A stretch of DNA of 64,000 nt from Tenacibaculum mesophilum (lineage in GTDB: Bacteria > Bacteroidota > Bacteroidia > Flavobacteriales > Flavobacteriaceae), in the NCBI RefSeq assembly GCF_003867075.1, contig NZ_CP032544.1, positions 2,908,001-2,972,000 on the forward strand, written 5' to 3'. Under the pieces are notes generated by a model. It ran no database searches, was not told the origin of the DNA, and saw only the letters and a list, made by a program, of their open reading frames with translations. Position 1 is the first letter of the stretch. Every line of letters begins with the position of its first letter. Positions 531 to 32,479 of this stretch are shown here, piece after piece. A program made the position numbers and the translations under genes.

Positions 531-815
531 GTGATTAAAAATTCGTGTTGACATGTTTTAATATTTAAACACAATTCTTATGAAATTTTATTTCAAGTCT
601 TAGAAAGCCTAAACCCATCTCAATTTGTTCCCATTTGATTATGTTTTACTGAATTGTATTGATAATAGTGTTGATTTTTTTGTTTTATGATTTGAGTGTA
701 ACCAAGTAATAACCATCTTTTATTATATTTTATTAAGAGAAATGTTGATTTTCTGTTTAGTTTGTTAAGATGTAGTTCCATCTTTAGAATGAAAGTAAGG
801 ATTATTTGCTTTTTA
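531..815. other. Spacer between the two tRNA-fMet genes, no gene seen
   Basis: AT-rich DNA of about 285 bases between the first tRNA terminator and the second tRNA promoter. Reading frames here are short and run antisense through the tRNA, and none has recognisable protein features. No further structured RNA was recognised. Confidence 0.6.
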
Positions 816-848
816 TTTGGATAGTACAAAGAAAAAGATGTATATTTG
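816..848 (+). promoter_or_regulatory. Promoter of the second tRNA-fMet
   Basis: TTTG at 816-819 and TATATTTG at 841-848 have the same 21-base spacer as copy 1. The roughly 55 bases upstream of both tRNAs are near-identical, so the promoter was duplicated together with the gene. Confidence 0.8.
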
Positions 849-859
849 CAACCGCAAAT

Positions 860-938
<79 letters not shown>

Positions 939-954
939 TAAAGCTTGTTAAATC

Positions 955-985
955 AACGGATTGTTTACCACAATCCGTTTTTTTA
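955..985 (+). terminator. Terminator after tRNA-fMet copy 2, carried by the element
   Basis: AACGGATTG and CAATCCGTT form a 9-base-pair stem with a 7-base loop, followed by a T run. It lies between attL and the integrase remnant and is unrelated to the terminator of copy 1. It appears to replace the terminator displaced to the other end of the island. Confidence 0.8.
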
Positions 986-1041
986 TGTCTTTATCTTTCT
1001 TACTTTTACGTACCGTAAATGCTAGCGTAAACGTTTTTAAT

Positions 1042-1464
1042 ATGAAATTGAATTTTTCAGAGCCTAAAATATATACAGGTGGAGTACGAATTTCAGAGTG
1101 GTCGAAGTTGACAAAATCTGAAAAAGAAATTGCATTAAAAAAGGATTGGTTTGTATATTATTCTTATAGAAACCCTAAAACTCAAAAATTACAAAGGCAG
1201 CCACATATTAAGGCAGGAGTTAATAAATTAAAGACAAAGCAAGAACGAATCGCATTTTTACGAACAATGCAAAAAGCGTTACTAGAGTTATTACAAGCAG
1301 GATTTAATCCATATATAGATAATTCAGAGCTAGAAGCTGAACTTTTCGGTGATGCTAGTAAAACGCAATCTTCAAATATTGCCCAATCTAAAATGTTGTT
1401 TGGAGAGATTGACGCTATAAATCCTTCGTTGCCCATAGCACCACTACCAAACACAAATTCTTGA
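1042..1464 (+). pseudogene. Tyrosine integrase, N-terminal fragment
   Basis: From the ATG at 1042 the frame begins MKLNFSEPKIYTGG and continues through KDWFVYYSYRNPKT, IKAGVNKLKTKQER and QAGFNPY. This matches the N-terminal arm and SAM-like region of Bacteroidota phage or ICE integrases. The catalytic domain with the R-H-R-Y residues is missing. After about position 1345 the frame leaves integrase-like sequence and reads antisense through the 3' end of the next gene, stopping at 1464. A longer frame opening at 961 overlaps the upstream terminator and is not a likely start. Position next to attL fits the integrase of this island. Confidence 0.8.
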
Positions 1465-2198
1465 TTTTTATGTGTAAAAGCGCCTTTCACAATATCAATC
1501 TCTGTCCAAATATCATCATTGTATTTTTCTAAACTTTCAATAGATGTATCACATAATGGTGACCAATATTGTCTTGTTTTTTTAGTGTTTGAATAACAAA
1601 CGCTATTTGTGTTTCCAATTATGATTTCGCCATCACCCATAATGATGCAATCATAACCAGGAAGATAGCCTTGTTGCCATTTTTGTTGTATTTTGGGGTG
1701 CATTGTATATTCTAAATCATTAAAATCTATGTGTTCTACTTCTGCTATAAAGTGTTCAGGCAATAGGTCTAAAAATTGTTTTACGGCTTTCATTTTTGAT
1801 GAAATAAATTCTAAATTATTGAGTTTTGAAAGCGCTATTTTTTCTGCTTGTTGGGGTTGTAATTCATCGTTAAAAGAACTACAAAGTTGGTATTTAAAAT
1901 GAATCATCTCATCCCCTATATCCATACTTATTAAAGCGGCTAGAAAGTGAGGTTTCCCTGTTTTGTATGACCACTGGTAATCATCAAAATCCAACTCTAA
2001 TCGCCATTGACTATTGCGTCCCCAAGCAGCATATTCAGATTTATGAACAATAGGTAATGGATTTCGAAACTTCTTTTCTTTAAGTATTTTGTTGAATAAA
2101 GGACTAATATCTTCTTTCAATTTTGGCAGTTCTGCTCGTAATAAGGCATTAAGTTCAGTATAAAATTTACTACGTTTTACGTTTTCTAGTCCATTCAT
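1182..2198 (-). pseudogene. Immunity-like protein truncated at its C-terminus by the deletion junction
   Basis: The frame starts at 2198. Its first ~275 residues are coherent and include a part near the end with GAMGNEGFIA and LDWAIF, a composition often seen at the C-terminus of bacterial immunity proteins. From about position 1380 to the stop at 1182 the frame only reads the antisense strand of the integrase fragment, so the native end is lost. I do not recognise a named family. The upstream neighbour starts 3 bases away. The product is probably non-functional or has a foreign tail. Confidence 0.6.
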
Positions 2199-2200
2199 AG

Positions 2201-2920
2201 TTAGATTGTTTTAGTCCAATTTTTATAGAACCAATCCGCTTTTGTTGGGATTTGATGCTCTTTACAATCAAAAGTTTCCTGTACAAAGAATAATTTATTG
2301 GCTTTTATTCTTTCTTCTGTCCATAAGTCTAATAAATCGAATTTACTTTGTATTTGTTTCAGCTGCTTTTTATAATTTTTAAAACAACACAATGACCCGA
2401 ATATCCCGTTTCCTACAGGATGATAGTTAGAGAACTTACAGCTTAAACAGGTTTTTAAATAAATATTTGGTGGTAGTTGATTTTGAAGTGCAATGAGGGC
2501 CTCTTCCATCCATTCCAACTTATTTTCGACTATAAATTTTCCGAAAGAAGCGTTTAGGGTTAAGCTGTTAATTTCATGATCCAAGCTGTCTATAGTTGCG
2601 TGCTCTCCAACTACTACAGTTACAATTAAGTGTTCTGTAACTGTTTGGTTAGTTGTGGCATTAAAGAATTGAATAAGAAATATAATCTTGAGACTAAAAT
2701 TGGTGATATCTCCCGAACCATCGGCAAACATATTGTAATCAAACTTGGTATTGTCAATGCTGTTTGTCGTGAGTTGATCAAAATCTCCTCCATAAAAATC
2801 AATGCCTCTAATGGTTGAAAACAACACACTACCATTAGATTTTATGATAATTTTTTCTGTTCCTCTTTTGTCTTGGTATGTGGCTTTGTATTGACGCATT
2901 AACCTATTATTTATATCCAT
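2201..2920 (-). CDS. DUF6304-like hypothetical protein
   Basis: About 239 residues from the ATG at 2920. A longer frame opens at 2950 but would overlap more of the preceding gene. The N-terminal half (YKATYQDKRGTEKIIIKSNG, then IRGIDFYGGDFDQL) resembles DUF6304, a family met in toxin-immunity neighbourhoods. A C-terminal part has a CxxC pair (CLSCKF) and a later LCCF. The chosen start overlaps the stop of the DUF6678-like gene by 14 bases, which suggests translational coupling. No signal peptide is present, so it should be cytoplasmic. The family call is from memory and moderate. Confidence 0.6.
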   Translation of the reverse strand: MDINNRLMRQYKATYQDKRGTEKIIIKSNGSVLFSTIRGIDFYGGDFDQLTTNSIDNTKFDYNMFADGSGDITNFSLKIIFLIQFFNATTNQTVTEHLIVTVVVGEHATIDSLDHEINSLTLNASFGKFIVENKLEWMEEALIALQNQLPPNIYLKTCLSCKFSNYHPVGNGIFGSLCCFKNYKKQLKQIQSKFDLLDLWTEERIKANKLFFVQETFDCKEHQIPTKADWFYKNWTKTI

Positions 2921-3413
2921 ATATAGTGATAATATCGCCATCTTGCTCAAAAGGAATGTTTAGTTTATTTAATAATTGAATCAATTCTTTGGTAGCATCA
3001 ATAATTTTTGATGGTACTAAGCGACCTTGGTGTATTTGTTGGGTTGCTCTGATTTCTAGCCATTCAATAGTAAAAAATGTAGGCAAGCCTTCTTCCCAAA
3101 AACTTGACCAATCTCCTTGGTATTTGGGTGGGTCTTTAAAGTCTTTAAAAGTGAATGCAGCTTTTTCCTGTAAGATTAATTTTTCGTTATACGCTGGAGG
3201 AAATGGTAACGAATCTATGTTTTGTTGTAATTCGAGCCACTTGGTATCATTCATTACAGACGAGAGGTTTCGGCTTTCAACAATTTTGTTTACTTGTTGT
3301 TTCAGTTTTACAATATCTTTATCGTTTTCTGTCAGGTATTTGTACTTTTCGAATAATGATAAGCCAAGCGAATCTACAGTTGCATAAATATTATGCTTTT
3401 CCTCGGTTTTCAT
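2907..3413 (-). CDS. DUF6678 family protein
   Basis: 168 residues, cytoplasmic. The pattern MNDTKWLELQ, LPFPPAYNEKL, PPKYQGDW, EEGLPTFFTIEWLEIR, GRLVP and the terminal FEQDGDIITIYGYK follows the DUF6678 family over its whole length, so the gene looks intact. A frameshifted relative sits at 8769-9190 in the same island. The function of the family is unknown. Its repeated occurrence among immunity genes suggests a protective role, which is inference. Confidence 0.72.
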   Translation of the reverse strand: MKTEEKHNIYATVDSLGLSLFEKYKYLTENDKDIVKLKQQVNKIVESRNLSSVMNDTKWLELQQNIDSLPFPPAYNEKLILQEKAAFTFKDFKDPPKYQGDWSSFWEEGLPTFFTIEWLEIRATQQIHQGRLVPSKIIDATKELIQLLNKLNIPFEQDGDIITIYGYK

Positions 3414-3436
3414 AGGTTTAATTTTTATTGGGTGTT

Positions 3437-3889
3437 TTAATCACTATTTGACCAAGTTAATATTCCGCTTAGAGGATATTTATTAAATCCTTTCATTACA
3501 TCATTTTTTTGAGATTTATTGATTTTTATTCTAATCCAAGCCTCGTGAGATTCTGTTAATCTATTTACATCAACCTCTATTATTTCGTTTAATCCATATC
3601 TGAATAAAATCGAATTTATTTTGTCTACATCTTCATAGTCAATTCCTTTTATTGCTCCATTACCATTATATTTTGTACCAATAAAGTAATTTATTAATTC
3701 TATTTCGGGACTTTTAAACTCCAAATTCTCTTTAGAGTAGTCATTAGATAATGGCAAAAATATTCCTTCAATTTTCGGATGCAAACAAGCAGTTCCACCA
3801 GTTTGGTTTGAAATCATTATTCCAGTCGGATACTCAATTATTATTCCGAGTCCAACAGAATCCCATATTTCAATTAAAGGTTGATTCAT
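3437..3889 (-). CDS. DUF6210-like protein
   Basis: 150 residues without signal peptide. The start IWDSVGLGIIIEYPTGIMISNQTGG and then CLHPKIEGIFLPL is characteristic of a small family I recall as DUF6210, seen scattered in bacterial genomes near toxin-immunity genes. Function is unknown. A gap of 80 bases separates it from the next gene downstream on its right side, and 23 bases from the DUF6678-like gene. Confidence 0.6.
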   Translation of the reverse strand: MNQPLIEIWDSVGLGIIIEYPTGIMISNQTGGTACLHPKIEGIFLPLSNDYSKENLEFKSPEIELINYFIGTKYNGNGAIKGIDYEDVDKINSILFRYGLNEIIEVDVNRLTESHEAWIRIKINKSQKNDVMKGFNKYPLSGILTWSNSD

Positions 3890-3969
3890 TTTCTTTATTT
3901 TATTTTATTTTGTCTTATCTTATATATCATTATTACTTACACAACATGTAAGTAATAGTTGTTTGTTTA

Positions 3970-4266
3970 TTATTGATAGTTAATTGATTGATATTCAATT
4001 TTATTGCTTTTAATGTAATCTTTTAGTTTGTCAAGGTTTGTCCACAAATAAGAGGAACCGTATTGACAAATATAAATGCCGTCATTCTCAAAGACGATAG
4101 TTACGTTTGGTAATTTTCCATTATTTTCAGCTTCTCTGAATTCCCAAAATACCTTATTGTCAAACTTGTACTTTTTGTCAAAAGTTATATTGTCCAAAAG
4201 CAAAAATTGGATGTCGTTAGTTTGTTTGTTAGGAAGTTTTGCTCTTAATTTATATTCGAACCCCAT
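3970..4266 (-). CDS. Hypothetical small protein
   Basis: 98 residues, no signal peptide or membrane segment, family not recognised. Alternating hydrophobic and charged stretches (NVTIVFENDGIYICQYGSSYLW) suggest a small mixed alpha/beta fold. Its start codon lies 1 base after the second stop of the interrupted gene at 4268-4573. The two probably formed a coupled pair before that gene broke. Confidence 0.6.
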   Translation of the reverse strand: MGFEYKLRAKLPNKQTNDIQFLLLDNITFDKKYKFDNKVFWEFREAENNGKLPNVTIVFENDGIYICQYGSSYLWTNLDKLKDYIKSNKIEYQSINYQ

Positions 4267-4267
4267 T

Positions 4268-4573
4268 TTAGTCGCCTAATATTTTGATATCTAAATTTTT
4301 GTCTGAAAAATATTTCAATAATGTTCTAAATTCTAAAATGTCGATTATTTTTTACTTATCCATGTTTAAGTTTGTTTTCTCAATATAAATGTCAATTATC
4401 TTTACAAACATTTTTTGATTTTCAATGGTCAATTTTATGTCGCTATATGGGTCAATTAAAACGCCTGTCCAATTTTTATATTCAGTAAAAACTTCATAAA
4501 GATTTTTACACTTGTTATCATTAAGTCCGAACAAATATTCTTGGTTGTCAAGTCTGTGAAAATCTAATGCCAT
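4268..4573 (-). pseudogene. Immunity-like gene interrupted by an in-frame TAA
   Basis: From the ATG at 4573 the frame reads MALDFHRLDNQEYLFGLNDN and ends at a TAA at 4352-4354 (73 residues, last residues NLNMDK). The same frame then stays open for 27 more codons, reading IIDILEFRTLL and KNLDIKILGD. It ends with a TAA at 4268, 1 base before the next gene. The continuation keeps protein-like composition and a natural end, so the first stop is most likely a nonsense mutation in a ~101-codon gene. The family is not named with certainty but resembles small cytoplasmic immunity proteins. Confidence 0.65.
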
Positions 4574-4669
4574 AGGTTTGTTTATGATTACAGGATTCTA
4601 TTCAATATAGGTTCAATGTTTTTAGTTTGTTTTGTTAATGTTACATAAAAAGTAAAAGATAAATTGAGT

Positions 4670-5047
4670 TTAACAACTGTTATATTCACAAGTCTTCTTA
4701 AGGTTATATTTTTTTATAATTTCTTTTTCCCATGCTAAATATTCATCCTTAAAACTGTTAATATCACTTGGTATTCCTTTGGTCCAATACATGTTTCCGT
4801 GAACCAACAACATAGCCCAATGATATTCTAACTCATGGATTAGCTGGTACACATCTTCTAAAGTGTTTGGAGTATTTCTTAAGAAGCTTTGCTTTAGCTT
4901 TTCGTTAGCATTTTTATAGGAGATTTTTCCATATTTTACCATAATGTGCTTAATTAACTCACAAAACGAATAGTGATTAAAAACAAGGCTTTCGTCTTCA
5001 TCTTTAAATGATATATTATCTTGTGGCGTTTTGTTTCCTTCGCTCAT
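4670..5047 (-). CDS. Hypothetical immunity-like protein
   Basis: 125 residues, cytoplasmic, predicted mostly helical. The stretch ELEYHWAMLLVHGNMYWTKGIP followed by FKDEYLAWEKEIIKKYNL looks like a compact helical domain. I do not recognise the family. It is 12 bases from the upstream gene at 5060 and in the same direction as all neighbours. A role as an immunity protein is inferred from context only. Confidence 0.6.
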   Translation of the reverse strand: MSEGNKTPQDNISFKDEDESLVFNHYSFCELIKHIMVKYGKISYKNANEKLKQSFLRNTPNTLEDVYQLIHELEYHWAMLLVHGNMYWTKGIPSDINSFKDEYLAWEKEIIKKYNLKKTCEYNSC

Positions 5048-5059
5048 AAATATTTTTGT

Positions 5060-5530
5060 TTATCGAGATAATTCTTTCAACAACTCGATTATTTTCCCTT
5101 TCCCATACAAACGAATATAAACTCGATTTTTATCTTGATTATTTGTTAACTTTATTAACCACTCTTTTGTTTTGTCAAAAATTCCAACTGTAACATCCCC
5201 ACTCTGATCAGCTTTATCATATTTTACGAGACTAGACATAAAACTTAAGTCTTCAAAATCAGATAATTCCCCTAATCCAACTAAGTCGGTTACTGCATTG
5301 TCAATTAGATTTATTTTAAACCAATAAACAGAGTCAATATTTTTACTCTTTTTTAATGATTTTCCGATTTTTTTCAGGAAAACATTAAGATTGGTTGATG
5401 CAAAATCCTCTTTAACATAATTAAATGGGCTTTCAAAAATTTTGTTTCCCTTTATAAAAGCATTAAGTGAAAAATTTCCACCTTTTATAATACTTTCTTT
5501 TATCCAGCTTTCAGTTTCTGCAAAATTCAT
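5060..5530 (-). CDS. Hypothetical protein
   Basis: 156 residues with no signal peptide or transmembrane segment. An amphipathic N-terminus is followed by beta-rich sequence (SVYWFKINLIDN, SGDVTVGIFD, RVYIRLYG) and a C-terminal helix. No family recognised. It sits in the run of closely spaced minus-strand island genes, 12 bases upstream of the gene at 4670-5047. Confidence 0.55.
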   Translation of the reverse strand: MNFAETESWIKESIIKGGNFSLNAFIKGNKIFESPFNYVKEDFASTNLNVFLKKIGKSLKKSKNIDSVYWFKINLIDNAVTDLVGLGELSDFEDLSFMSSLVKYDKADQSGDVTVGIFDKTKEWLIKLTNNQDKNRVYIRLYGKGKIIELLKELSR

Positions 5531-5573
5531 GTTTTTCTTAAATTTACTATAATTGGGAGATTAAAATTCGTTT

Positions 5574-6200
5574 TTATAAATTTCCGTACACAACAATTTC
5601 GTCAGCATATCTCAATTGAGTATTAAACCATTTAATTAAATCTCTTAAAAACATTTCTACGTTTGGGTCTTTTGTTTTGATCGTAGCTATTCTTCCAACA
5701 ATAATTCTACTTGTCTTATTATCAAAAAAGTTTCCACTAACGATATTAAAACAATTTTGTGTTTCTCTAGTGTTAGAATTAGTTAATGGAAAAACTGATT
5801 TAAAAGCATCGATAACATATTCAAAATCTTTAGTTTGAATAAAAAGACTTTTATCTCTTAAGGTTATATACTTATCAAGGCTTTCATTTTCTGCCCATAA
5901 AATAAATCCAATTTTATCAATTGGTTCATTAGGTGTAACTGTCAAGTAAAATAATTGTTCGTGAATTTTGTTTATAGATTTCTCTATGTCAAATCCACAA
6001 ATTCTATAATATTTTTTAGCTATTGTTTCATTGCACTCTGCGAGTCTGCATATAGAATTGATATTGTTTCTATGAAACTCTTGTTCACAAGTCAATAAAT
6101 CACCATCGTTATTAATTATCAATTCTTTGGCTAAATCCATAGGAATTGACAATCTGTTTCTAAGCTCTTTTATTTTTTGAAATTCTGTTTTTAGTTTCAT
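5574..6200 (-). CDS. Hypothetical protein with EF-Ts/UBA-like N-terminal repeats
   Basis: About 208 residues from the ATG at 6200; an alternative start lies at 6221. Residues ~8-35 (KIKELRNRLSIPMDLAKELIINNDGDL) have the shape of the UBA-like N-terminus of elongation factor Ts. Residues ~50-75 (LAECNETIAKKYYRICGFDIEKSINKI) repeat the same three-helix pattern. The remaining ~130 residues are not recognised. No other EF-Ts region is present, so this is not a translation factor. The neighbourhood suggests an immunity or accessory protein. Confidence 0.55.
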   Translation of the reverse strand: MKLKTEFQKIKELRNRLSIPMDLAKELIINNDGDLLTCEQEFHRNNINSICRLAECNETIAKKYYRICGFDIEKSINKIHEQLFYLTVTPNEPIDKIGFILWAENESLDKYITLRDKSLFIQTKDFEYVIDAFKSVFPLTNSNTRETQNCFNIVSGNFFDNKTSRIIVGRIATIKTKDPNVEMFLRDLIKWFNTQLRYADEIVVYGNL

Positions 6201-6246
6201 TATTTCAATTCTAACCAACACTAAAATTTATGTTGCTGCGTTTGGT

Positions 6247-6597
6247 TTAATTATCTTTACTCTTTATTCCAAGTTGTGGATTATCTTCTCTCCAAAATAT
6301 TTTTACTGTTCCATTAAAATCAAACCGTATTTGTAAAAAACCAGCTGTCTCCATTCTCATATAATCCCATCCCCATAAATGTTTGCCATTTCCATCATAA
6401 TCATGACTCCATAAGTCGTGTCCGTTGTTTTTTAATATGGTTATTATTTCATCCACTTCTTGCCAGTATTCATCCCAATTTGTAAATGATTTCAATCTCT
6501 CAGTCAAATCAACTTCCAATCTTTCCAACATTAATTTACGTTCTTTGTTCTCAAGATTTTCTAAAATTGTTCTTTTATATTTACGATAATTGTTCAT
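6247..6597 (-). CDS. Hypothetical immunity-like protein
   Basis: 116 residues, cytoplasmic. A basic, helical first half is followed by a tryptophan-rich segment (GHDLWSHDYDGNGKHLWGWDY) and a strand pair ending in VKIFWRED. Such Trp/Asp/His-rich segments are frequent in small toxin-neutralising proteins, but I recognise no named family. Same direction as neighbours, with gaps of 25-60 bases. Confidence 0.55.
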   Translation of the reverse strand: MNNYRKYKRTILENLENKERKLMLERLEVDLTERLKSFTNWDEYWQEVDEIITILKNNGHDLWSHDYDGNGKHLWGWDYMRMETAGFLQIRFDFNGTVKIFWREDNPQLGIKSKDN

Positions 6598-6658
6598 TAT
6601 AATTTTTAATTACTGACGATGCTAAAATTCACGAAAGTTAGCATATTAAAACAGTGTA

Positions 6659-6970
6659 TTATATTAAATTAAACTTTTCTAATGTCATTTTTATAACTTC
6701 ATTATCTAATCTTAGAATCGGAAAATCTGCAATCAAATAAGGAGGATAACCTGAATCTTTAGAGTCATCATTTATTACATAGGATTCCGTTGTTCTATTT
6801 CTAAATCTTAATAAATAAACCTTAAGCCCATTAGAACAATAAAAATCAATTTCGTGGTTTTCCATAAATTCATCAGGTATTTGATGAATGTTAATTATCT
6901 TCCAGTTATCAAATTCTCTATCATATCCGTTTTGATATTCTGCACGTTTTTCAAATTCTTTTATTGTCAT
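6659..6970 (-). CDS. Hypothetical small protein
   Basis: 103 residues with no signal or membrane segment. It contains NGYDREFDNWKIINIHQIP and a middle beta segment (GLKVYLLRFRNRTTESYVIND), then a helix at the end. Family not recognised. It belongs to the minus-strand array and is flanked by gaps of about 60 bases. Confidence 0.5.
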   Translation of the reverse strand: MTIKEFEKRAEYQNGYDREFDNWKIINIHQIPDEFMENHEIDFYCSNGLKVYLLRFRNRTTESYVINDDSKDSGYPPYLIADFPILRLDNEVIKMTLEKFNLI

Positions 6971-7027
6971 TTTTCAAATGTCTTGTTGTAACAGGCTTAA
7001 AAAATCAGAGGAATCTTCTATGCTTTT

Positions 7028-7333
7028 TTAGCATACGGATGATTTTGAGAAAATAATATTTTCTAAACTGCAATCTTTAATGTTGGTTTCACAAAAATGT
7101 GATTCCCAAAAAGTAACATTATCAAAGTCACAATTTCTAAACTGACACTGCTTAAATTCACATTGTTTGAAGGATACTTTAGCAAAAATTATATTTCTAA
7201 ATTCTATTCCGAAGAATGATGATTTTTCAATAAAAGAGCTGTAATAATGCTGATTGATAAAAGTTTTTGCACTAAACTCTTTATTTGACGTTATCATTAA
7301 TTTACTTACATTCTTCATAATTTCTAGTTTCAA
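7028..7333 (-). CDS. Small pentapeptide-repeat protein
   Basis: 101 residues. From about residue 40, the A(D/N)LxX-type pentapeptide pattern runs for roughly ten coils (SFKQC EFKQC QFRNC DFDNV TFWES HF, then LENIIF), with aromatic F at the central position. Such proteins form right-handed beta helices. It is short compared with Qnr-type DNA mimics and probably a partial or minimal solenoid. It may start at 7333 or at 7318. Function in the island unknown; cytoplasmic. Confidence 0.7.
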   Translation of the reverse strand: MKLEIMKNVSKLMITSNKEFSAKTFINQHYYSSFIEKSSFFGIEFRNIIFAKVSFKQCEFKQCQFRNCDFDNVTFWESHFCETNIKDCSLENIIFSKSSVC

Positions 7334-7342
7334 TGTATTCTT

Positions 7343-7636
7343 TTAATACAACTCTATTTCCCAATCTTCGTACGGAGGTTCTACTTTAAAGTTAGCATCG
7401 CAATACGAACGGATGTAATCTGTTGCTCGTTTTTCAGCATATTTTGCATTGAGCACTTCTCCGTTTTCATCCATTTCTATAACGTTGGCAAAAATGGCAA
7501 AGGCTTGTTCTATGGCACTGGGCTCTTCACCATATAGTTTTAGGTAATCAATACCTTTTAATTGGTAATGCGTACCACTTGCCATAAAATAGGCAAAACT
7601 TCTGAGTGCTCCGCTAAATGATTCGCTTAGTTTCAT
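7343..7636 (-). CDS. DUF7677-like protein
   Basis: 97 residues, cytoplasmic. The start MKLSESFSGALRSFAYFMASG and the end YCDANFKVEPPYEDWEIELY resemble a small family that I recall as DUF7677, common in immunity clusters. Length agrees with an intact family member. It starts 17 bases after the stop of the gene at 7654-7965 and ends 9 bases before the pentapeptide gene, so all three are probably co-transcribed. Confidence 0.55.
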   Translation of the reverse strand: MKLSESFSGALRSFAYFMASGTHYQLKGIDYLKLYGEEPSAIEQAFAIFANVIEMDENGEVLNAKYAEKRATDYIRSYCDANFKVEPPYEDWEIELY

Positions 7637-7653
7637 ATATAATTTTGGTTGTG

Positions 7654-7965
7654 TTAGTCACTAAAAATACATCTTATACTCTCAATAATTTTCCAACAAG
7701 TATTATGGTCTAATCCCTTAGGCCTGTTTACTTTCCAATGCCCCATGCTTGCTTTTAAAGTTTCGTTGATGCTAAACAGTTGAAATGCCACTTCTTTTTC
7801 TATAACCGGTTTTTCTGTGTAATGTTCTTGTAAACACCGTAATGCTTGAAGAAACCGAGCAATTCGTTCTTCTTCTACATCGGCACTCATTCTAAACAAG
7901 GTGTCTAATCCATCGTCTGATTGATACTCTTTAGCAATGTGTTTTTTAGCTTCTTGAAAGTTCAT
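7654..7965 (-). CDS. Hypothetical helical protein
   Basis: 103 residues, cytoplasmic, all-helical by composition, with RFLQALRCLQEHY and GHWKVNRPKGLDHNTCWKIIESIR. Family not recognised with confidence. It is separated by 9 bases from the lipoprotein gene upstream, and by 17 bases from the DUF7677-like gene downstream. An immunity role is inferred only from its place. Confidence 0.55.
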   Translation of the reverse strand: MNFQEAKKHIAKEYQSDDGLDTLFRMSADVEEERIARFLQALRCLQEHYTEKPVIEKEVAFQLFSINETLKASMGHWKVNRPKGLDHNTCWKIIESIRCIFSD

Positions 7966-7974
7966 ATTGCGATG

Positions 7975-8742
7975 TTAGTTTTTACACAATTTAGGGATAT
8001 ATAATTTCAGTTGTTTTAATACTTCTGGGTTTACATTATCGCTATTCACTTCGTTATCTTCTTTTAATTTTATTCCAGCATCGCCATTTGAAGGGGTACA
8101 GGTAAAAAAATAAGATTCGTAATATTCCTCTGATAGAAGCTCATTGACATACATTTTTACTTTAAAGGTAACTTCGTGCGTGTTGTTGTTGCTTACAATT
8201 TTGTTTTGAGTATAGGTGATTGCACAACCAGAACCGCAGGAAATTACAAATGAATGATTTTCATTGGTTGGGTTATTTACATTCGTTGCTGAGACCAAAA
8301 ATTCTCTAAACTCTAAATACTCAGGATCACCAGCAGGTCTAATACTATCTATTCTCCAGTTTATCATAATTTTTTGTTCATTACTAAACGTTCCTTCCCA
8401 TTTATCATCACTAATCAACACAACTGTTTTGTCATTGTTTTTTACTCTAAATAGTACATCGTCATAATCCATATTGTTGAAATCTACAAAGACAACCGTA
8501 TCAGTATAAATTCTTCCCCATTTCAATTGTTCATTAGGTCTTAGGCGACTTGTAAAATGGTCTGGAATCTTGTTTTCTTCTGTTTTTGAAAGAAGGTTTA
8601 TTGTGTCTTTATTGTCTTCCGCTGTATTAATTATGGTGTTAATTTCTGTTTCAGTAGATTTTTTTGATGTGTTTTTACAAGATGTTAAGCCAATAATAAG
8701 CAAGAATATGTGGAGTAAAAGTGGAGTGGTTTTAGTTTTCAT
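7975..8742 (-). CDS. Lipoprotein of unknown function
   Basis: 255 residues. A basic start, a hydrophobic stretch and a lipobox (LIIGLTSC) give a lipoprotein signal with Cys at about residue 22. The next residues are KNTSKKST, which lacks the acidic surface-export signal described for some Bacteroidota lipoproteins. The mature part has paired cysteines (ISCGSGCAITYTQNK) and beta-rich sequence. No known domain recognised. It may protect at the envelope, since its neighbours are immunity-like. Confidence 0.6.
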   Translation of the reverse strand: MKTKTTPLLLHIFLLIIGLTSCKNTSKKSTETEINTIINTAEDNKDTINLLSKTEENKIPDHFTSRLRPNEQLKWGRIYTDTVVFVDFNNMDYDDVLFRVKNNDKTVVLISDDKWEGTFSNEQKIMINWRIDSIRPAGDPEYLEFREFLVSATNVNNPTNENHSFVISCGSGCAITYTQNKIVSNNNTHEVTFKVKMYVNELLSEEYYESYFFTCTPSNGDAGIKLKEDNEVNSDNVNPEVLKQLKLYIPKLCKN

Positions 8743-8768
8743 TTTGTTTTTTTATAGTTGATTTTAAT

Positions 8769-9190
8769 CTATTTGTATCCATATATTTTTATTCCTTCAC
8801 TGGATTCTTCGTATTCAAATTGTGTTCCTACTTGCAATGCTTTAGCAATTAGTTTGGTGTTTTTTGGGTATGAGTTTTAGGTGTAAGCCGTTCTTCTCTA
8901 TTTTTTTGTTCTGTTTGTATTATGGAAGGAATAAATAACCATTCAATTTCTTTTAAATCAAAAATACCCCAATATGCTTCAATAAATTTTTTGTTGATGA
9001 TATCTTCTATGTTGGGAATCACCATCTCTTTTGCGTTATCGTCTAATAAAAGTTTTATGTTCACTATGCATTTCGGGTCTATTTCTTTTACAATTGAAAA
9101 TAACTTCTGCCACTTTGTAGTGTTCATAAAACTAACTTTTTTTATGATTTCTTCTTGTAGTTTCAGTTGATATGTATTAGGGGTTGACAT
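8769..9190 (-). pseudogene. Second DUF6678-like gene, frameshifted in an A run
   Basis: The frame from 9190 gives 113 residues (MNTTKWQKLF, then YWGIFDLKEIEWLFIPS) and stops at 8849. In the shifted frame just beyond a run of six A residues near 8864-8869 the sequence reads LIAKALQVGTQFEYEES and IKIYGYK before a TAG at 8769. That matches the end of the intact relative at 2907-3413 (FEQDGDIITIYGYK). The total length 422 is one base short of 141 codons, consistent with a single-base deletion. Confidence 0.72.
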
Positions 9191-9240
9191 CGTATTAATT
9201 TCAGATTCATCAATGATGATGTTAATTCGCTTCGTTTCCT

Positions 9241-10500
9241 TTATTTATAGGTTTTACCATCAAATTTTAATACCGATGTTTTAGTAGTAATGGTATCTTT
9301 ACTAATACAACCACTATTTTCATCTTCAAAAACTATATTATTGGTGATTTTATGTTTCACTAAAATATCAAAATAACCATTGTTTTTTTCTTCTGAAATA
9401 ATGAGTGTTCTTTTTTCGTTTATAAATTCACCTTCGCAATTACCATCCCATTCACCTCTATTGTCCAGTATTTCAAAATTATGTAGGACTTTCTGTAAAT
9501 TGTTATTGGCTACTATAAACAAGGAAAGTTGCTCACTTTCGTAAGGATTTACACGCGAACTACCAACAAAATGGGTTTTAACGCCAAAAGCACGTTCGTT
9601 TTCTGTAATGGTACAGGGTGCTGTGTCTATGACTATTTCTAGTAGCACTATGGCATCTGACGTCCAGCCGTTTGTTTCAGCACTTTCAAAATAGTGAAAT
9701 AAAACCTGTTTGTTTTCTATATTCACATAAGCAATATGAGTATCGAGCGAAAAGAAATGTTCTTCTTCGCTGCCTTCTACGATTTCGGGAATAACCACTA
9801 TGGCTTCGTGCGGACGGTTAGGCAGTATTTTAAATGCTTGTAAGCTTGGTATTAGTTTTGAGTGGTCTATGTTTAATTCATTTATCACCAATTCATAAAA
9901 TATTTCTTTGGTGTTTAATATTTTAAGTTTTCCGTTGGGTTCTATTCTAATAATACCGGTTTCTTCACCTGCCTTAAAATGGTAATTAATCGTAATGCGA
10001 TTTGCTTCAATTTTTGATTTTGTACTAGTCCAATTTTGTATTTTTGCATCGTAAGCAACCATTTCTGAAGCAATGATATTTCCTTCTATGTCATAGTTGA
10101 TAAGTCTCGATTCTATTTCCTCATCGCTTTGTATTGCTGTTATGACTACAGTATAAAAATCTTTAGATAACTTTAATCGGTATGCGTCAATGATACGATA
10201 ATTGGATTTGAGGATATTCCAATTTTTATAAACTAGAGCCAGATTTAATGCTTCGGTATTTACTTCTTGATAATCGCCTTTATCTGTATGGCTATCAAAC
10301 GAAGAGTTTTCGATAACAGGGAGATTTTTTAGTTTCAGTTTTAGAAATTCTTCTTTAAAGGTTGTAGTGGTGTGTTTTGACGGTTCTGCTGCCGCTTCAA
10401 CAGCGTTTTCTACTTCTACAGTTTCTACCTTCTTTTCTTTGATGTTATTATTGCAAGAACAAAAGATTAGTAAGATAATTATGAGGTAAAGAAATTTCAT
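9241..10500 (-). CDS. Large lipoprotein of unknown function
   Basis: 419 residues. The signal sequence ends in a lipobox (LIFCSC, Cys at about residue 16), and an acidic and Thr-rich linker follows. The mature part is rich in beta strands with repeated charged loops, and has cysteines near CDGNCEGEF and NSGCISKD. No family recognised. It probably sits in the periplasm or outer-membrane inner leaflet. It is transcribed with the membrane proteins upstream (10521 onward), 20 bases apart. Confidence 0.6.
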   Translation of the reverse strand: MKFLYLIIILLIFCSCNNNIKEKKVETVEVENAVEAAAEPSKHTTTTFKEEFLKLKLKNLPVIENSSFDSHTDKGDYQEVNTEALNLALVYKNWNILKSNYRIIDAYRLKLSKDFYTVVITAIQSDEEIESRLINYDIEGNIIASEMVAYDAKIQNWTSTKSKIEANRITINYHFKAGEETGIIRIEPNGKLKILNTKEIFYELVINELNIDHSKLIPSLQAFKILPNRPHEAIVVIPEIVEGSEEEHFFSLDTHIAYVNIENKQVLFHYFESAETNGWTSDAIVLLEIVIDTAPCTITENERAFGVKTHFVGSSRVNPYESEQLSLFIVANNNLQKVLHNFEILDNRGEWDGNCEGEFINEKRTLIISEEKNNGYFDILVKHKITNNIVFEDENSGCISKDTITTKTSVLKFDGKTYK

Positions 10501-10520
10501 TTTTAGTTAATTAAGTAGTG

Positions 10521-11132
10521 TTAGTCTTTGATTAGGACATTGTTGTTAATGGTATCTGTTTTAACCGGATATGCATCTTTGAAATACGTTAACGCACCGT
10601 AATAGCGAGTGATATCATTTTTATAAGCTTTGATATTATAGGTTGCCAATTTTTGAGTTTGATACATGCTCAAATCTTCCACAATCATACCGCCTAAATC
10701 TTCTTGGTTATCTATAAAATAAGACGTTCCGTAATCTTGAAATATAGATAGTTTTGAGTTCTTGCTATATGTGTAAAATGCCAATGTAGCATAAGGTGCT
10801 TCGTATGTGTTCTCAGAATATATTTTTTGATTGATTATTGGGTTTTTACCTATTACTTCAATTACCTTGCTTTTTATAATATTGTTTAAGGAATCTCGAT
10901 CTTTAATGGGGTGTTTCACCAAATATAAATTGGGATAAACGGTAGATTGAATCATTTCCATTTTGGTGAAAAATAGACGGTTGAGGGTGTTGCCAATTAT
11001 AGCAATAACTAACAATGCTGCTGCCACAATAATTCTCACTCTTTTTGCTGCAATCCACTTTAAAATTTTGTAGAGTAGAAATAAAACTAAACCAGCTAAT
11101 AGGAGTAAAAAAATGATGAGGAGTATTTCCAT
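10521..11132 (-). CDS. Membrane-anchored hypothetical protein
   Basis: 203 residues with two N-terminal transmembrane segments (residues ~1-25 and ~33-50) around a short basic loop (KWIAAKRVR), then a soluble domain of ~150 residues. The soluble part carries IIKSKVIEVIGKNP and many Tyr residues. Family not recognised. It starts 4 bases downstream of the gene at 11137, so the two are coupled. Membrane immunity proteins against envelope-targeting toxins have this general form, but the role is inference. Confidence 0.55.
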   Translation of the reverse strand: MEILLIIFLLLLAGLVLFLLYKILKWIAAKRVRIIVAAALLVIAIIGNTLNRLFFTKMEMIQSTVYPNLYLVKHPIKDRDSLNNIIKSKVIEVIGKNPIINQKIYSENTYEAPYATLAFYTYSKNSKLSIFQDYGTSYFIDNQEDLGGMIVEDLSMYQTQKLATYNIKAYKNDITRYYGALTYFKDAYPVKTDTINNNVLIKD

Positions 11133-11136
11133 TTTA

Positions 11137-11391
11137 CTATTTTATTTGTTCCCAAACACGCATTGTAGTATTACAATATCCTGTGACCATATCTAAAATA
11201 TCATCAGCTCCGCCTTGCAAGGTTTGGTTGGCTGGAGGTTCAATTTTTATTTTTTTTAATATTTCAATAGCTATATTTTGTGTCCTTCCAGAGTTTTTAA
11301 AAGTAAACAATACTTTTCTAACTTCTTCGTTAAAACAATTGCCTTGTTTAGCAAGTTCTAATAAGGTTTTATATAGTTGCTTGTTGGTCAT
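11137..11391 (-). CDS. Hypothetical small helical protein
   Basis: 84 residues, cytoplasmic, predicted all helical except for a loop with PPANQTLQGGADD. No family recognised. It lies between two membrane-protein genes with gaps of 8 and 4 bases, so it is part of their operon and probably works with one of them. Confidence 0.55.
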   Translation of the reverse strand: MTNKQLYKTLLELAKQGNCFNEEVRKVLFTFKNSGRTQNIAIEILKKIKIEPPANQTLQGGADDILDMVTGYCNTTMRVWEQIK

Positions 11392-11399
11392 TTATTTTT

Positions 11400-11741
11400 T
11401 TAAATTATATCAATCACTTTTTCTAACAGGTAATGTACTACTATTACAAAAGCAGTAACTATCATAAGAACTCCAAACTGAATAGAAATTAGTTTACCTT
11501 TATTTTTTAACTTCTTTTTTAAGTAAAAAACATCCAAAAGAATAAATAGAACAGCAATGACCAATCCAACGATTCCTCCAACGGTAACTAAGCCCCAGTT
11601 GTAGAACATATGGGCTAAATACCCCAATCCTTCTTTAGGTATATTATTAGCCCCTAAAACAATCCGCATATAGGTTATACCTAATGTTATGGAAACTATT
11701 GTCCATAATATATAAGTAAAAAGTTGTTTTAGTTTTTTCAA
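11400..11741 (-). CDS. Small integral membrane protein
   Basis: 113 residues with three hydrophobic segments (about 7-27, 48-72, 88-108) and a lysine-rich loop (YLKKKLKNKGK) between the last two. No family recognised. Encoded in the close-packed group 9241-12699, which has two more membrane-anchored products. An envelope role is likely. Confidence 0.6.
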   Translation of the reverse strand: MKKLKQLFTYILWTIVSITLGITYMRIVLGANNIPKEGLGYLAHMFYNWGLVTVGGIVGLVIAVLFILLDVFYLKKKLKNKGKLISIQFGVLMIVTAFVIVVHYLLEKVIDII

Positions 11742-11754
11742 ATTTTCAAACAGG

Positions 11755-12699
11755 TTAATCTTCTAAATAAGGTAATGCCTTTTCTTTATAATATGTTTCA
11801 TGTTCAATTAGCCCTAAATTACTTGCTGCCCAATATAATAACTTATACAGTTCATATCGATGTAAATTAATGTTTTCAATAGGCGCTGTTCTAACCTCGG
11901 TCATTAATTGTTCTATTTTCCCTTCGTCATCTTGATAGTTATGAAAATAAATCAAATCAAAATAATATTGAGCTAATATTAATTGCTGAATAAAAGGTGC
12001 CCATTCATTCATACGATTTAAATAATTTTCATATTCTTCAACACTTGCTCCCCATTTGGGAGATACAAACGCTAAATAATTTTTATGCAATTCGGCATCA
12101 TCTGGAAATTCATTTATCACATTTTCGAAAAGTTGATGCACATATTGTCTATTTGCATTGATGGCTTTGTAAACATCTAATAAACAAGAAATTATATTGG
12201 TTTTAAAACTGCTGTTTTTATTATTAACTTCAATTAAAATAGCTTCGGCCTTTTTTAGGTGTTTTTTAAAAGATGCTAACTTTTCGTTTGATACACTATC
12301 AATAGTTCCGCGACCACGGATTTGCCAAGCTTTATGAATTAATTGATATCCTTTAATTATTTTGGGTAAATCGTTATTATTGTCTTTAGTAATCCATTCA
12401 TCACTTATCTTAATGTTTCCATATTGCCCCAAACTTTCAAAAGCAAACGAACGTTGGCTAGAATTCATACTTTTTAAAGTTTGCTCTACATTGCTAAATT
12501 GTCTTTTATTAAAAAAGATGATTACTTCTTTAAGTTTTAGGTCGTTTAAATGTGCATGACTTTTAAATTTATACCTACCTATGAGGTTTATTAAATTATC
12601 TACAGGACTAAAAATGCCATATTTGTCTAAAAAGTAAAGAATTCCTAATCCTATTAGTATCCATTTCACAATTGGGTATTGATTAAAAAAGTCTATCAT
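11755..12699 (-). CDS. Membrane-anchored helical-repeat (TPR-like) protein
   Basis: 314 residues. A single N-terminal transmembrane segment (IVKWILIGLGILYFL) is followed by ~280 residues of helical pairs with TPR-like spacing. These include FPDDAELHKNYLAFVSPKWG, a composition seen in proteins next to polymorphic-toxin genes. First gene of the tightly spaced set 9241-12699. No enzyme motif is visible. The function is unknown; a scaffold for the small membrane partners is a guess. Confidence 0.55.
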   Translation of the reverse strand: MIDFFNQYPIVKWILIGLGILYFLDKYGIFSPVDNLINLIGRYKFKSHAHLNDLKLKEVIIFFNKRQFSNVEQTLKSMNSSQRSFAFESLGQYGNIKISDEWITKDNNNDLPKIIKGYQLIHKAWQIRGRGTIDSVSNEKLASFKKHLKKAEAILIEVNNKNSSFKTNIISCLLDVYKAINANRQYVHQLFENVINEFPDDAELHKNYLAFVSPKWGASVEEYENYLNRMNEWAPFIQQLILAQYYFDLIYFHNYQDDEGKIEQLMTEVRTAPIENINLHRYELYKLLYWAASNLGLIEHETYYKEKALPYLED

Positions 12700-13013
12700 G
12701 ATTGTAAATGAGTTAAAAATTTTAAAGTAAATGAAAAATCGTATAAATTGAGAAATCTTATAAATTAAATTTGGTGAAAATATTTTAATAAGTTTAGTAT
12801 TACCATTTTGTAGTTTTTGCTATTAAAAAACGCAATGGCATCATCCCATTTTTTATCTTATTTGGTGGATGCCTTTTTTGGGGTGTATGGGTGGATAATA
12901 GGTGTCGACTTTATTCATAGTAATATTGGAATATCTGGCGCTACTTTATTGAAACCATTCTTAAAACATCCCCTACAACATAGATAGTTGTAGGGGTGAT
13001 AATATTTTATTTA
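12700..13013. other. Intergenic region with a hairpin and a possible 50-codon remnant ORF
   Basis: A plus-strand frame at 12835-12987 (50 codons, rich in Phe, Gly and Ile) is the only plus-strand frame here and has no recognisable family or promoter. It may be debris. A strong hairpin (CCCCTACAAC / GTTGTAGGGG, about 12969-12996) lies just past the stop of the cadherin-like gene and could terminate its minus-strand transcript. Otherwise the region is AT-rich and holds nothing I can name. Confidence 0.5.
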
Positions 13014-14432
13014 TTACTGGTTAAACGCTCTAACGGCCCTTACATGAAGTTCTAGTGATTTTTGCTCACTGCCTTCAAATCCATTAAAGGCTTGATAAAA
13101 TGCCCACCCTGTAGTTGTGCTATCTTGGGAAGAACTCCAATGGGTCGTATTGGTAAAAGGACTTCCCCCATAGGCGGTTATCGTTTCGTTTACAATACTT
13201 TTATTGATGTATAATTCGTGAATCTCATCTTTACTGGGCAAGAACCAATCATCGTAACCGTTCAAGGATAAATCTGAAGTAAGTTTGGCTGCAATGGGTA
13301 CTTCGGGACATACGGCAATGATTTCTTGGGTGTTGGTTTGACCAGTTCCAATTGCGGTTCCCGTAGCGCCATTTATAAAAACACTTTCACAGCCCCATTG
13401 AACTGAGCCTTGTTCGTCAAGAGCGCACACCAAGCCATGGCTGTTATCTGCGGGATCTACCCAAAAAACCACCCCTCCATGATTATAGTCGCCTACCTCG
13501 TTGATATTGGCAAGAGCAACAAAAGCATTTGCAGAAACCGATTGGGTACCGTTACTTACCGAAATAGTGGCTAACATATTAGGATTGGTTTCAAAATCAA
13601 ACAAAGTAGCATCTGCAACACTCAATTCACCTGTATTTGCATTGATGTTAAAAGCTCCAGCAGGATTTTGAAAGGTAATAGTATATGTTAAGTTAGAACC
13701 ACTTGCCTGTAAAGCCCCCACAACATCTCCGTTTGATGGATTTTCATTAATAGTTAGGTTTGTATTTTGAGCAGATACTTCATCTATATCATTAAGATTA
13801 ATGGTAACGGTTGCTGTTTGAACGGTACCTGCATTATCAACAGAAACTGTAGCGGTAATTGTAGGGTTGGTTTCAAAATCGAACAAAGTAGGATTTGCAA
13901 CGGTTAATTCACCTGAGTTAGAATTTATATTTAAGGCTCCATTTGGTGATTGAGCAGTAATACTATAAGTTAAAGTTGCATCACCACTTGCTGAAATAGT
14001 TCCTAATGATTGTCCGTCGGTAGGATTTTCATCAATAGTTGTAGAAAAATCTTGAACGCTTAATTCGTTTGTATTGTTTACAGTAATGGTTACCGTAGCG
14101 GTGTTTTGAGCTTTATCCGCAGCAATAGTTGCTGTAATTGTAGGGTTTGTTTCAAAATCGAATAAGGTAGCATCGGCAACGGTTAATTCTCCTGTATTTT
14201 CATTTATTTCGATAGCTCCATTTGGTGTTTGCGAAGTAATGCTAAAGATTAAGGAAGCATTATTATCGCTTTCAACGGTTCCTATAACTTGTCCAACCGT
14301 AGGATTTTCATCTATTGTAACCTCTAAATTTTGAAGATTAATAATAATTGGATCGTCGTCCTTACTACAACTATAGGTTATTATTAATAGTGTAAGAATT
14401 AATGTTTTTGTAAATTTAGTTATGTTTTTCAT
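13014..14432 (-). CDS. Lipoprotein with three cadherin-like repeats and a Lcl/DUF1566-type C-terminal domain
   Basis: 472 residues. A lipoprotein signal (TYSCSKDDDP, Cys followed by Ser-Lys-Asp-Asp-Asp) comes first. Three ~90-residue repeats follow, each with IDENPT or INENPS, INxNTGELTVA and LFDFETNP, typical of cadherin-like modules found in marine bacteria. The C-terminal ~150 residues contain DDWFLPSKDEIHELY and WSSSQDSTTTGWAFYQ, matching the Lcl/DUF1566 domain of surface proteins. The acidic residues after the lipid Cys suggest a surface-exposed lipoprotein. Adhesion or cell contact is a reasonable role. Confidence 0.8.
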   Translation of the reverse strand: MKNITKFTKTLILTLLIITYSCSKDDDPIIINLQNLEVTIDENPTVGQVIGTVESDNNASLIFSITSQTPNGAIEINENTGELTVADATLFDFETNPTITATIAADKAQNTATVTITVNNTNELSVQDFSTTIDENPTDGQSLGTISASGDATLTYSITAQSPNGALNINSNSGELTVANPTLFDFETNPTITATVSVDNAGTVQTATVTINLNDIDEVSAQNTNLTINENPSNGDVVGALQASGSNLTYTITFQNPAGAFNINANTGELSVADATLFDFETNPNMLATISVSNGTQSVSANAFVALANINEVGDYNHGGVVFWVDPADNSHGLVCALDEQGSVQWGCESVFINGATGTAIGTGQTNTQEIIAVCPEVPIAAKLTSDLSLNGYDDWFLPSKDEIHELYINKSIVNETITAYGGSPFTNTTHWSSSQDSTTTGWAFYQAFNGFEGSEQKSLELHVRAVRAFNQ

Positions 14433-14478
14433 CAGTTTATTTTTTATTGTTTTTTAAAAAATTTTCTTTAAACTATGG

Positions 14479-15471
14479 TTATGGCAAGTCATTTATTAGG
14501 GACTCCAGTTCATTTGCCGTTGCCGTGTTTAAATCGGCATCAGAAATAGTGATTATCTCTCCATCTACAATGGTAGCAGGTTTTATAGCATATAGCCAGT
14601 TACCACTATCTTCACTAGTGAAAATGATGTGACATTCAAGACCAATGGGAATTTGACCATAATGCTCGCTAAAAAGTTGTTGTTCTTCAATATAGGTATC
14701 TAACTCACCTAAAGCATTTGGCTCTCCATTATAATATATATATACACTGCTGTTTGTGTTATTAAAACCGTTGGGAACATCTACCAATAATGTTGTTTTA
14801 GGTCTTGAGTCTTGGGAAAATCTATCGACATTCGTCCAACCAAATTCACCAAAATCAGCAACATAAAACGTTTCTCCATTATCTCCATTAGCAATTTCTA
14901 CTTCCTTGTTCTCAATTTCTTCCCAAACTATATTGTCACAGATTATGGGTAAATCACAGTCTTCATCTATACCTATTCCTTTCCATAAAATCATTTCATT
15001 ATCTACTTGTCCAGTAAGGCTAGTAGGCACAAGAACCTGTATAGGACAATCCAATTGTAATTGTACTCCTCCTTGAGTGGCATTGATAAAAAATTCTCCT
15101 CCTGAAATTAAAAGTGCCTTATCTCCATTTTCCATTCTCCCCATAGTAGGTTTATTTGTGATTGCCATACCTCCACTTTTAAAAAGTTCAATCACTTTTA
15201 TATCAACAATTCCTGTAATAGGATTTCCATTGTTGGAAAGGCAGTTTCCATTGATAACAAATTGCACGCCGTTTTCTGTTGTAAGTACTTGTGTTTGGTT
15301 TACATTTAACTGAAAATCTTGCATTTTACTTTGCATAGCTGCTGCTTTAAGCAGACTAAACTCTGTAGAGGTTGCTCTTACTTTTGTAGGGTTATTCTCA
15401 TCTTGTGAACAGCTTACAAAAAGAGATAAAGTTATCACTAGTAAGCTTATAGCTAATTTTACATTTTTCAT
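14479..15471 (-). CDS. Lipoprotein of unknown function
   Basis: 330 residues with lipobox FVSC at about residue 21 followed by SQDENNP, an acidic start consistent with surface export. The central part (VQFVINGNCLSNNGNPITGIVDIKVIEL) looks like a carboxypeptidase-regulatory or fibronectin-like beta sandwich. No enzyme motif. It lies 46 bases upstream of the cadherin-like lipoprotein in the same direction, so both may be one transcript and act on the cell surface. Confidence 0.6.
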   Translation of the reverse strand: MKNVKLAISLLVITLSLFVSCSQDENNPTKVRATSTEFSLLKAAAMQSKMQDFQLNVNQTQVLTTENGVQFVINGNCLSNNGNPITGIVDIKVIELFKSGGMAITNKPTMGRMENGDKALLISGGEFFINATQGGVQLQLDCPIQVLVPTSLTGQVDNEMILWKGIGIDEDCDLPIICDNIVWEEIENKEVEIANGDNGETFYVADFGEFGWTNVDRFSQDSRPKTTLLVDVPNGFNNTNSSVYIYYNGEPNALGELDTYIEEQQLFSEHYGQIPIGLECHIIFTSEDSGNWLYAIKPATIVDGEIITISDADLNTATANELESLINDLP

Positions 15472-15499
15472 ATTATCTAATTTTTAAGTTTATTATATT

Positions 15500-16066: not shown

Positions 16067-16194
16067 TTTCGTGTTTTTTATAATTACACGACTAAAAGTA
16101 TATAGTTAAAGTGAAGTAGGAAATAGAGAATCTATTTCTGAGGTTTTTGAATAAATAAGTGAAATACTTTATAAAATATCCGTAAAACAGGAGG

Positions 16195-19120: not shown

Positions 19121-19317
19121 GGTAAAAGTAGCATAGATTTCAAACAAATTATTGATTTGTTTTATAGCAAAAATTTAAAAATAACTTTTTAAGTATATAA
19201 AAAAAAACAATAATTATTTTTTGAAATAGGTTAAATAATAATTGCTAGGACTCATTAAATATTCGTTAAAAATTAAATCTAGTAAAAAATTTAACCAGTT
19301 TTGTAAATACCATATAA

Positions 19318-19344: not shown

Positions 19345-19427
19345 TATTTAATTTACAGTAAACAATATCGTAAACTATTTTGTAAGTTTTAATTATAAAA
19401 AAGCGAGAAAATTGGCATTCCTTCGAA

Positions 19428-32468: not shown

Positions 32469-32479
32469 ACCCCAAAATA

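Follow-up and report, generated by a model that had tools for sequence, protein, structure and literature searches.

The subject of this analysis is an array of small genes on contig NZ_CP032544.1 of Tenacibaculum mesophilum, which lies in a stretch of 64,000 nucleotides (positions 2908001-2972000 of a 3.34 Mb genome in one contig; hereafter the window, numbered from its first base). With moderate confidence we read the array as part of a decaying mobile island, integrated at a tRNA-Met gene, in which a tail resembling a polyimmunity locus has been joined behind a conserved envelope operon. A first-pass annotation had described it as an orphan immunity array with the layout of the acquired interbacterial defence (AID) and recombinase-associated AID (rAID) systems. 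Our data lead us to regard the locus as a variant of polyimmunity loci and not as rAID: an orphan-immunity tail that lies downstream of an operon headed by a two-component system.

The minus-strand genes were numbered g01 to g26 from 1182 to 19147, shorter overlapping open reading frames (ORFs) being dropped by eye; the interval first annotated corresponds to g01–g21. Some 17 genes in one direction had been counted there. The single strand and the short gaps stand, but 1182-12699 contains 21 ORFs, and 12699 is not the limit of the array: the same-strand row of 26 genes continues to 19147, within an island of about 891-19483. Gaps between the 26 genes have a median of 25 bases (25 gaps, the largest 314), and ORF lengths in the first 21 range from 73 to 419 amino acids, with 14 of 21 between 100 and 300. 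The absence of a toxin gene was confirmed, in that no toxin family is matched by any of the 21 proteins in Pfam, nor in NCBIfam by any of the 19 from g01 to g19. Above the Pfam cut-off are six of the 21, which match DUF6304, DUF6678 (twice), DUF6210, a pentapeptide repeat and DUF7677.

Evidence that the tail encodes immunity proteins comes foremost from g07 (4670-5047), a predicted orphan immunity protein for which the individual evidence is best. On a plasmid of Cupriavidus campinensis (L186) a gene for VgrG (607-3567) and one for an RHS effector (to 8332; DUF3990 domain at its end) are followed by two relatives of g07 (8363-8767 and 8953-9336) that are identical to it at 37 and 45 of 104 positions (36% and 43%). 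Standing in tandem directly behind VgrG and RHS-DUF3990, these relatives occupy the usual position of cognate immunity genes. DUF3990 is placed in Pfam's ADP-ribosyltransferase clan (PMC7955679), so that such an end is predicted for the Cupriavidus effector. The same succession of VgrG, RHS effector and small gene is found in vgrG3-rhsF-rhsFi of Chromobacterium violaceum, where an order VgrG, Rhs, immunity of this kind was tested (PMC13324451); the window differs from such an operon in that g07 has no adjoining effector and its profile no convincing relative in the PDB. An immunity role is thus supported for g07, which would presumably itself neutralise a toxin.

For two further genes such a role is weakly suggested. 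The first is g19, linked to g07 by the fact that 26 of 85 g07 homologs (P0140 and P0176 among them) carry a g19-like N-terminal domain; the two are separate genes in the window, and the fusions suggest a two-domain immunity protein. The second is g04, whose family, DUF6210, occurs on plasmid pA of Spartinivicinus ruber (L183, L189) in a run of 13 small co-oriented genes that lies next to a VgrG-DUF4123 cluster and converges on it: another candidate immunity array. In Fibrella and Priestia, DUF6678 belongs to small-gene arrays that have recombinase-family genes in the vicinity. Counterparts of the tail in Aquimarina include an Imm68 match that passes its cut-off, SUKH and Imm50 matches that do not, and LRR, DUF4303, DUF2947 and DUF6714 proteins, these contents being drawn from scanned representatives rather than from every gene. 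The remaining tail genes would by extension also encode immunity proteins, each presumably neutralising a toxin. The proposal of orphan immunity therefore survives in part: the relatives of g07 behind VgrG and RHS, the g19 fusions and the Imm68 of Aquimarina speak for it, but about half of the array is a conserved core.

Two other loci have some bearing on the subject. At 2708000-2722000 of the same genome (L175) a VgrG and RHS locus is followed by genes for Imm22, SUKH and Imm11, and the VipB sheath protein finds no match in this genome. In another genome (G072, L042) a long co-directional row with many LRR-like proteins, and with a DUF7677 domain in a 218-residue protein, resembles an immunity array.

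A number of findings weigh against immunity as the function of the tail. None of the 21 array proteins matches an Imm or SUKH family in Pfam. This search does return Imm22, SUKH and Imm11 for the genes that follow the VgrG-RHS locus of the genome itself, so that the want of Imm names in the array reflects a genuine difference and not a blind search. Sequence searches of the PDB with eight profiles (g01, g02, g03, g17, g07, g04, g14 and g05) gave nothing convincing (best E 0.021, for g17), and the DUF6210 structure was without a match among 571 chains. Adjacency to a toxin is confined to one record and one family (Cupriavidus, g07), a repeat search with the Cupriavidus copy yielding no second record. 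No toxin was seen beside DUF6678 among those of its 38 loci that were inspected (22 by eye, 19 by a scan of the nearby genes for RHS and HINT motifs), and at three Pedobacter loci it stands singly, each time flanked by the same genes. A DUF7677 protein 80% identical to g13 stands alone in what by eye looks like a molybdopterin-biosynthesis cluster (G166, L040, 9819-10112), and no effector lies beside DUF7677 on two Streptomyces plasmids. VipB has no match in the genome. Finally, the gene order of the window is kept in 439 of 467 gene pairs at 25 loci, and a purely opportunistic collection would not need order; this count covers 16 loci and nine others that include the two worst (L041 and L068), and the loci are related, so that the tests are not independent.

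The conserved order also bears on the array as a whole, whose upstream part is a core operon. This operon (g15 and g17–g26) is headed by the response regulator g25 and the TPR histidine kinase g26 (together 16195-19147), which hold the same position in relatives; g26 has TPR-protein matches and a histidine kinase match at residues 539-680, g25 has receiver-domain matches, and we take the latter to be of the LytTR type. Then follow g24 (lipoprotein-like, and used as core marker), g23 and g22 (cadherin repeats and Lcl_C) at 13014-16066, assigned by Pfam, genome scan and hydropathy; the remnant of a core gene that in relatives encodes 401 amino acids (12700-13013); g21, g20, g19 and g18 (10521-12699), of which g18 and g20 are membrane proteins; g17 (9241-10500), a lipoprotein-like member of the PA3715 family (NCBIfam NF052451, E 4e-63); and the lipoprotein-like, core-associated g15 (7975-8742). 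A simple hydropathy script flags seven of these eleven as membrane or lipoprotein-like (g15, g17, g18, g20, g23, g24 and g26) and leaves g19, g21, g22 and g25 unflagged, although by eye g22 resembles a lipoprotein.

The core is conserved well beyond the species. Including our own genome in each count, g24 is present in 15 of 199 genomes of the family (13 strong matches, two weak) and in nine of 97 of the genus, four at 63% identity or more and five at 44% or less, while the g17 family is present in 20 of 199 (18 above cut-off). Translated searches (tblastn) of 12 core loci from other genera found g17 in 12, g18 and g20 in 10 each, g24 in nine, g25 and g22 in seven each, g26 in six, g15 in four, g23 in two, g21 in one and g19 in none; these loci are stretches of 20 kb or less, and absences can be edge effects. 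Trypsin_2, LemA, DUF1266 and DUF3137 proteins are further members of other cores. The closest core, in sister genome G022, runs g26, g25, g24, two further genes, g20, g18, g17, g13 and g15, and there ends. The first-pass annotation had held that one conserved multi-gene operon with a different function would count against it; as far as conservation goes, this is what about half of the array proves to be, most of g15 and g17–g26 recurring under the two-component system in other genera. In one genome (G195, L178) a core operon has, some 6 kb away at 6288-8694, genes that by eye resemble those for a contractile tail sheath and tube.

It is thus conceivable that core and tail form one operon with a single function other than immunity, for example an envelope-stress or surface-remodelling response under the two-component system, in which the small soluble proteins would be regulators or partners of the lipoproteins. 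The 26 genes on one strand with short gaps, the kinase pair at the head of the operon in several genera, the further proteins of other cores and the preserved gene order are all in its favour. We nonetheless consider it unlikely. The 12 core loci from other genera (20 kb or less each) contain none of g01–g12, g14 and g16, and g13 in one case; six of seven Aquimarina tails have no kinase pair within 10 kb upstream of g03, tail contents vary by species, and relatives of g07 come after a toxin gene.

This turnover of the tail is documented at several levels. The tail recurs at seven Aquimarina loci and in Flexithrix dorotheae, in similar order and with many other genes between, and the number and type of genes differ among the Aquimarina, Flexithrix and same-genus loci. 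Its families are rare. In samples that miss some holders and whose counts include our own genome, DUF6304 was found in three of 199 genomes, DUF7677 in five of 199, DUF6678 in one of 247 (our own), DUF6210 in two of 395 (one of them weak) and g14 in one of 397 (our own); the 38 loci of DUF6678 came from a wider scan of 84,980 genomes. Within the genus, a Tenacibaculum metagenome-assembled genome carries relatives of g03 and g09, and a T. mesophilum copy of g07 is 95% identical to that of the window.

The DNA of the window and that of the Flexithrix locus are 79-93% identical in blocks, and as Flexithrix is a member of another order, such identity suggests recent transfer. Block edges fall mostly at or near gene ends, and one (8175/9113) corresponds to a Flexithrix deletion inside g15 and g16. 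For nine genes (six of the tail, three of the core) the ratio of nonsynonymous to synonymous substitution rates (dN/dS), with Flexithrix as the reference, lies between 0.02 (g13) and 0.48 (g07), the value for g01 including its foreign tail; several genes are thus under purifying selection. Plasmid records matched g02 (two, a quarter of the query each), g03 (six), g04 (one), g13 (four) and g07 (one), and the same search was without a match for g01, g05, g08, g09 and g10; the plasmid neighbourhoods of g03/g13 and g04 are small-gene arrays in three of six inspected, the two Streptomyces ones not being among them. Phage records held no match for g07, and viral contigs gave DUF6210 at four weak loci and nothing for DUF6678 or g07.

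The tail genes, all on the minus strand, were delimited as follows. The last gene of the array, g01 (1182-2198; Pfam and tblastn), resembles DUF4085 below the cut-off and has lost its 3′ end at a junction described below. It is followed by g02 (2201-2950; DUF6304, in seven Aquimarina loci), g03 (2907-3413; DUF6678), g04 (3437-3889), g05 (3970-4266; no Pfam match, in six Aquimarina loci) and g06 (4352-4573), which a stop codon shortens in comparison with relatives of about 100 amino acids. Beyond g07 lie g08 (5060-5530; DUF6488 below cut-off), g09 (5574-6221; relatives in three Aquimarina loci and the Tenacibaculum metagenome-assembled genome), g10 (6247-6597) and g11 (6659-6970), both from the ORF list and Pfam search, and g12 (7028-7333), a pentapeptide-repeat protein shorter than its Flexithrix relative. 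Then come g13 (7343-7636; DUF7677), which follows g17 also in G022, G118 and G060, the soluble g14 (7654-7965), present in all seven Aquimarina array loci and in Flexithrix, and, between g15 and g17, g16 (8849-9190), a second copy of DUF6678 with a broken frame (tblastn matches in two frames). Pfam matches of g02, g03, g04, g13 and g16 are above cut-off. By script no membrane segment is present in g02–g14 or g16, and in g01 the one hydrophobic stretch falls past the region of homology, in the foreign tail (residues 317 on).

Such signs of damage raise the possibility that the tail is a miscellany of accessory genes – anti-phage, metabolic or other – that share no purpose, accreted in the island and are now decaying. 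The truncated integrase described below, the truncated or interrupted g01, g06, g12 and g16 and the core-gene remnant speak for it; most of the families are without known function, and g12 matches the anti-phage protein HalA, albeit far below cut-off (33 versus 250 bits) and perhaps only by reason of its pentapeptide repeats. Set against this are dN/dS values well under 1 for several tail genes, and the recurrence of the same uncommon set in Aquimarina and Flexithrix, and we judge the miscellany to be quite unlikely. The island is in decay, yet those tail genes that can be compared still look constrained.

The island itself is well delimited. ARAGORN places two tRNA-Met genes on the plus strand, at 419-492 and 860-933; the second (anticodon CAT) is the integration site and supplies, with its 3′ half and flank (about 891-946), the left att-like repeat. 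A whole-genome search with alignment found a partial third copy, the right att-like repeat, at 19428-19483 (plus strand), 56 bases comprising the tRNA-Met 3′ half and flank and identical at 55 of 56 positions to the first tRNA copy and at 52 to the second. These repeats set the extent of the island, about 891-19483. In sister genome G017 the site is empty: a single tRNA-Met, beside the dsbD-like pair, is directly bordered on its two sides by the left and right flanks of the window. Names of neighbouring genes are those we presume from sequence (Era, DsbD, MnmE). The island accordingly shows the direct repeats at both edges and the empty site in a relative that characterise tRNA-integrated islands, but its own integrase is truncated and not functional. 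The same site is occupied in G022 and G027 by islands that have related integrases of full length (456 and 449 amino acids) and different cargo, which, together with the empty site of G017, marks it as a hotspot. The tRNA-Met gene is part of a tandem duplication (369-505 and 810-946 share 137 bases), and a relative, G018, has three copies.

What remains of the integrase is an N-terminal fragment at 985-1392 on the plus strand (tblastn against G027), contained in an ORF (961-1464) just behind the second tRNA-Met. It has no Pfam match above cut-off, and 133 of its 136 residues are those of the 449-residue integrase of G027, identity then stopping at codon 136; from its length, the catalytic part has presumably been lost. 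Integrase homology ends at 1392, and homology of g01 to Flexithrix and Aquimarina ends at 1374. These ends are 18 bases apart, and both genes were cut at a single junction (1374-1392). At the other edge, 19357-19512 (the right repeat and the 71 bases that precede it) matches an att-like site of the G027 island at 94% identity; from that site to the dsbD side G027 has a further 9.5 kb or so. The array thus appears to occupy the shell of an integrative element that has lost part of its integrase. Capture of the genes by this integrase was considered and found no support: its family of tRNA-Met elements carries other cargo in the remaining members seen (G022 and G027). Elsewhere in the window, at 30442-39278, there is by eye a cluster resembling proline racemase or hydroxyproline degradation genes (two racemase-like genes, an oxidase, an aldehyde dehydrogenase and a DapA-like gene).

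The state of the integrase is decisive for the comparison with rAID. A tyrosine recombinase adjoining a tRNA gene had been reported, and both tRNA-Met and a piece of integrase are there, but the piece comprises 136 of 449 codons, lies on the opposite strand and stands at the far, downstream end of the array, against which it points. Likeness to rAID, as set out in PMC12247911, consists in a co-oriented low-GC array of short genes (about 100-300 codons; all 21 chosen ORFs are on one strand), the idea of orphan immunity and a tyrosine recombinase nearby; there, too, orphans may be as little as 30% identical to cognate immunity proteins, to be set beside the 36-43% of g07 and its Cupriavidus relatives. 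Base composition (array 30.2% G+C) says little, since a value below 41% does not discriminate an array in a window that is itself at 30.9%. The same paper describes rAID recombinases as upstream and co-directional, intergenic motifs as conserved and the hosts as Bacteroidales, whereas the host here is probably a flavobacterium. No repeat family of more than two copies exists in the window outside the tRNA and cadherin genes, and 6- to 10-mers shared in the 60 bases upstream of the 21 genes show no excess over shuffles, rAID's own motif not having been compared. Moreover, the near-identical integrase of G027 carries other cargo, and among all loci compared the fragment is matched only in its own genome, G027 and G022, array loci of other genomes encoding no match to it. 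The rAID layout first proposed is thus not supported; we rejected membership on the state of the recombinase and the layout, with the missing motif as a further point, and that co-oriented short genes without toxins near a recombinase piece should still signify a rAID system is extremely improbable.

A better fit is provided by the heterogeneous polyimmunity loci of Zhang et al. (2012, PMC3482391). Like those, the tail is co-oriented with small gaps, comprises unrelated families and has no toxin within; content varies between relatives, recombinases are sometimes near, and a counterpart in Aquimarina includes Imm68. The differences are that the tail families are not named Imm families and that the tail follows a kinase-headed operon, an arrangement that section 39 of that paper does not describe. 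Judged by those features, the tail matches this kind of locus in all but the lack of Imm names. The open-licence literature searched held no mention of DUF6304, DUF6678, DUF6210, DUF7677, DUF4085 or DUF6714, and searches of titles and abstract beginnings there for orphan immunity with LytTR, flavobacteria or two-component systems did not bring up a recognisable description of the locus.

How might such an island work? The core operon, with its TPR histidine kinase, response regulator, lipoprotein-like and membrane proteins, probably senses something at the cell envelope. Downstream, some 15 small soluble proteins encoded on the same strand with short gaps would most likely constitute the heterogeneous polyimmunity locus, each binding and blocking one cytoplasmic toxin domain from a neighbour's type VI secretion system or other polymorphic-toxin system, and recombination with foreign arrays would add and remove tail genes. 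Judged purely by position, the tail may be controlled by the kinase pair. A tentative extension, for which the balance of probability is at present unfavourable, is that the two-component system senses envelope attack and turns on a transferable stock of immunity genes: an inducible polyimmunity island, spread among marine Bacteroidota, in which kinase and lipoproteins would raise the alarm and the variable tail would supply the antidotes.

The best-studied orphan immunity arrays are those of gut Bacteroidales, and the locus described here points to a marine counterpart. It brings forward as candidate immunity families several that bear no immunity name – that of g07, DUF6210, DUF6678, DUF6304, DUF7677 and that of g14 – and for g07 it furnishes a concrete prediction of a toxin and its immunity protein. 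Were the tail indeed under control of the kinase pair, cells could raise their protection on contact.

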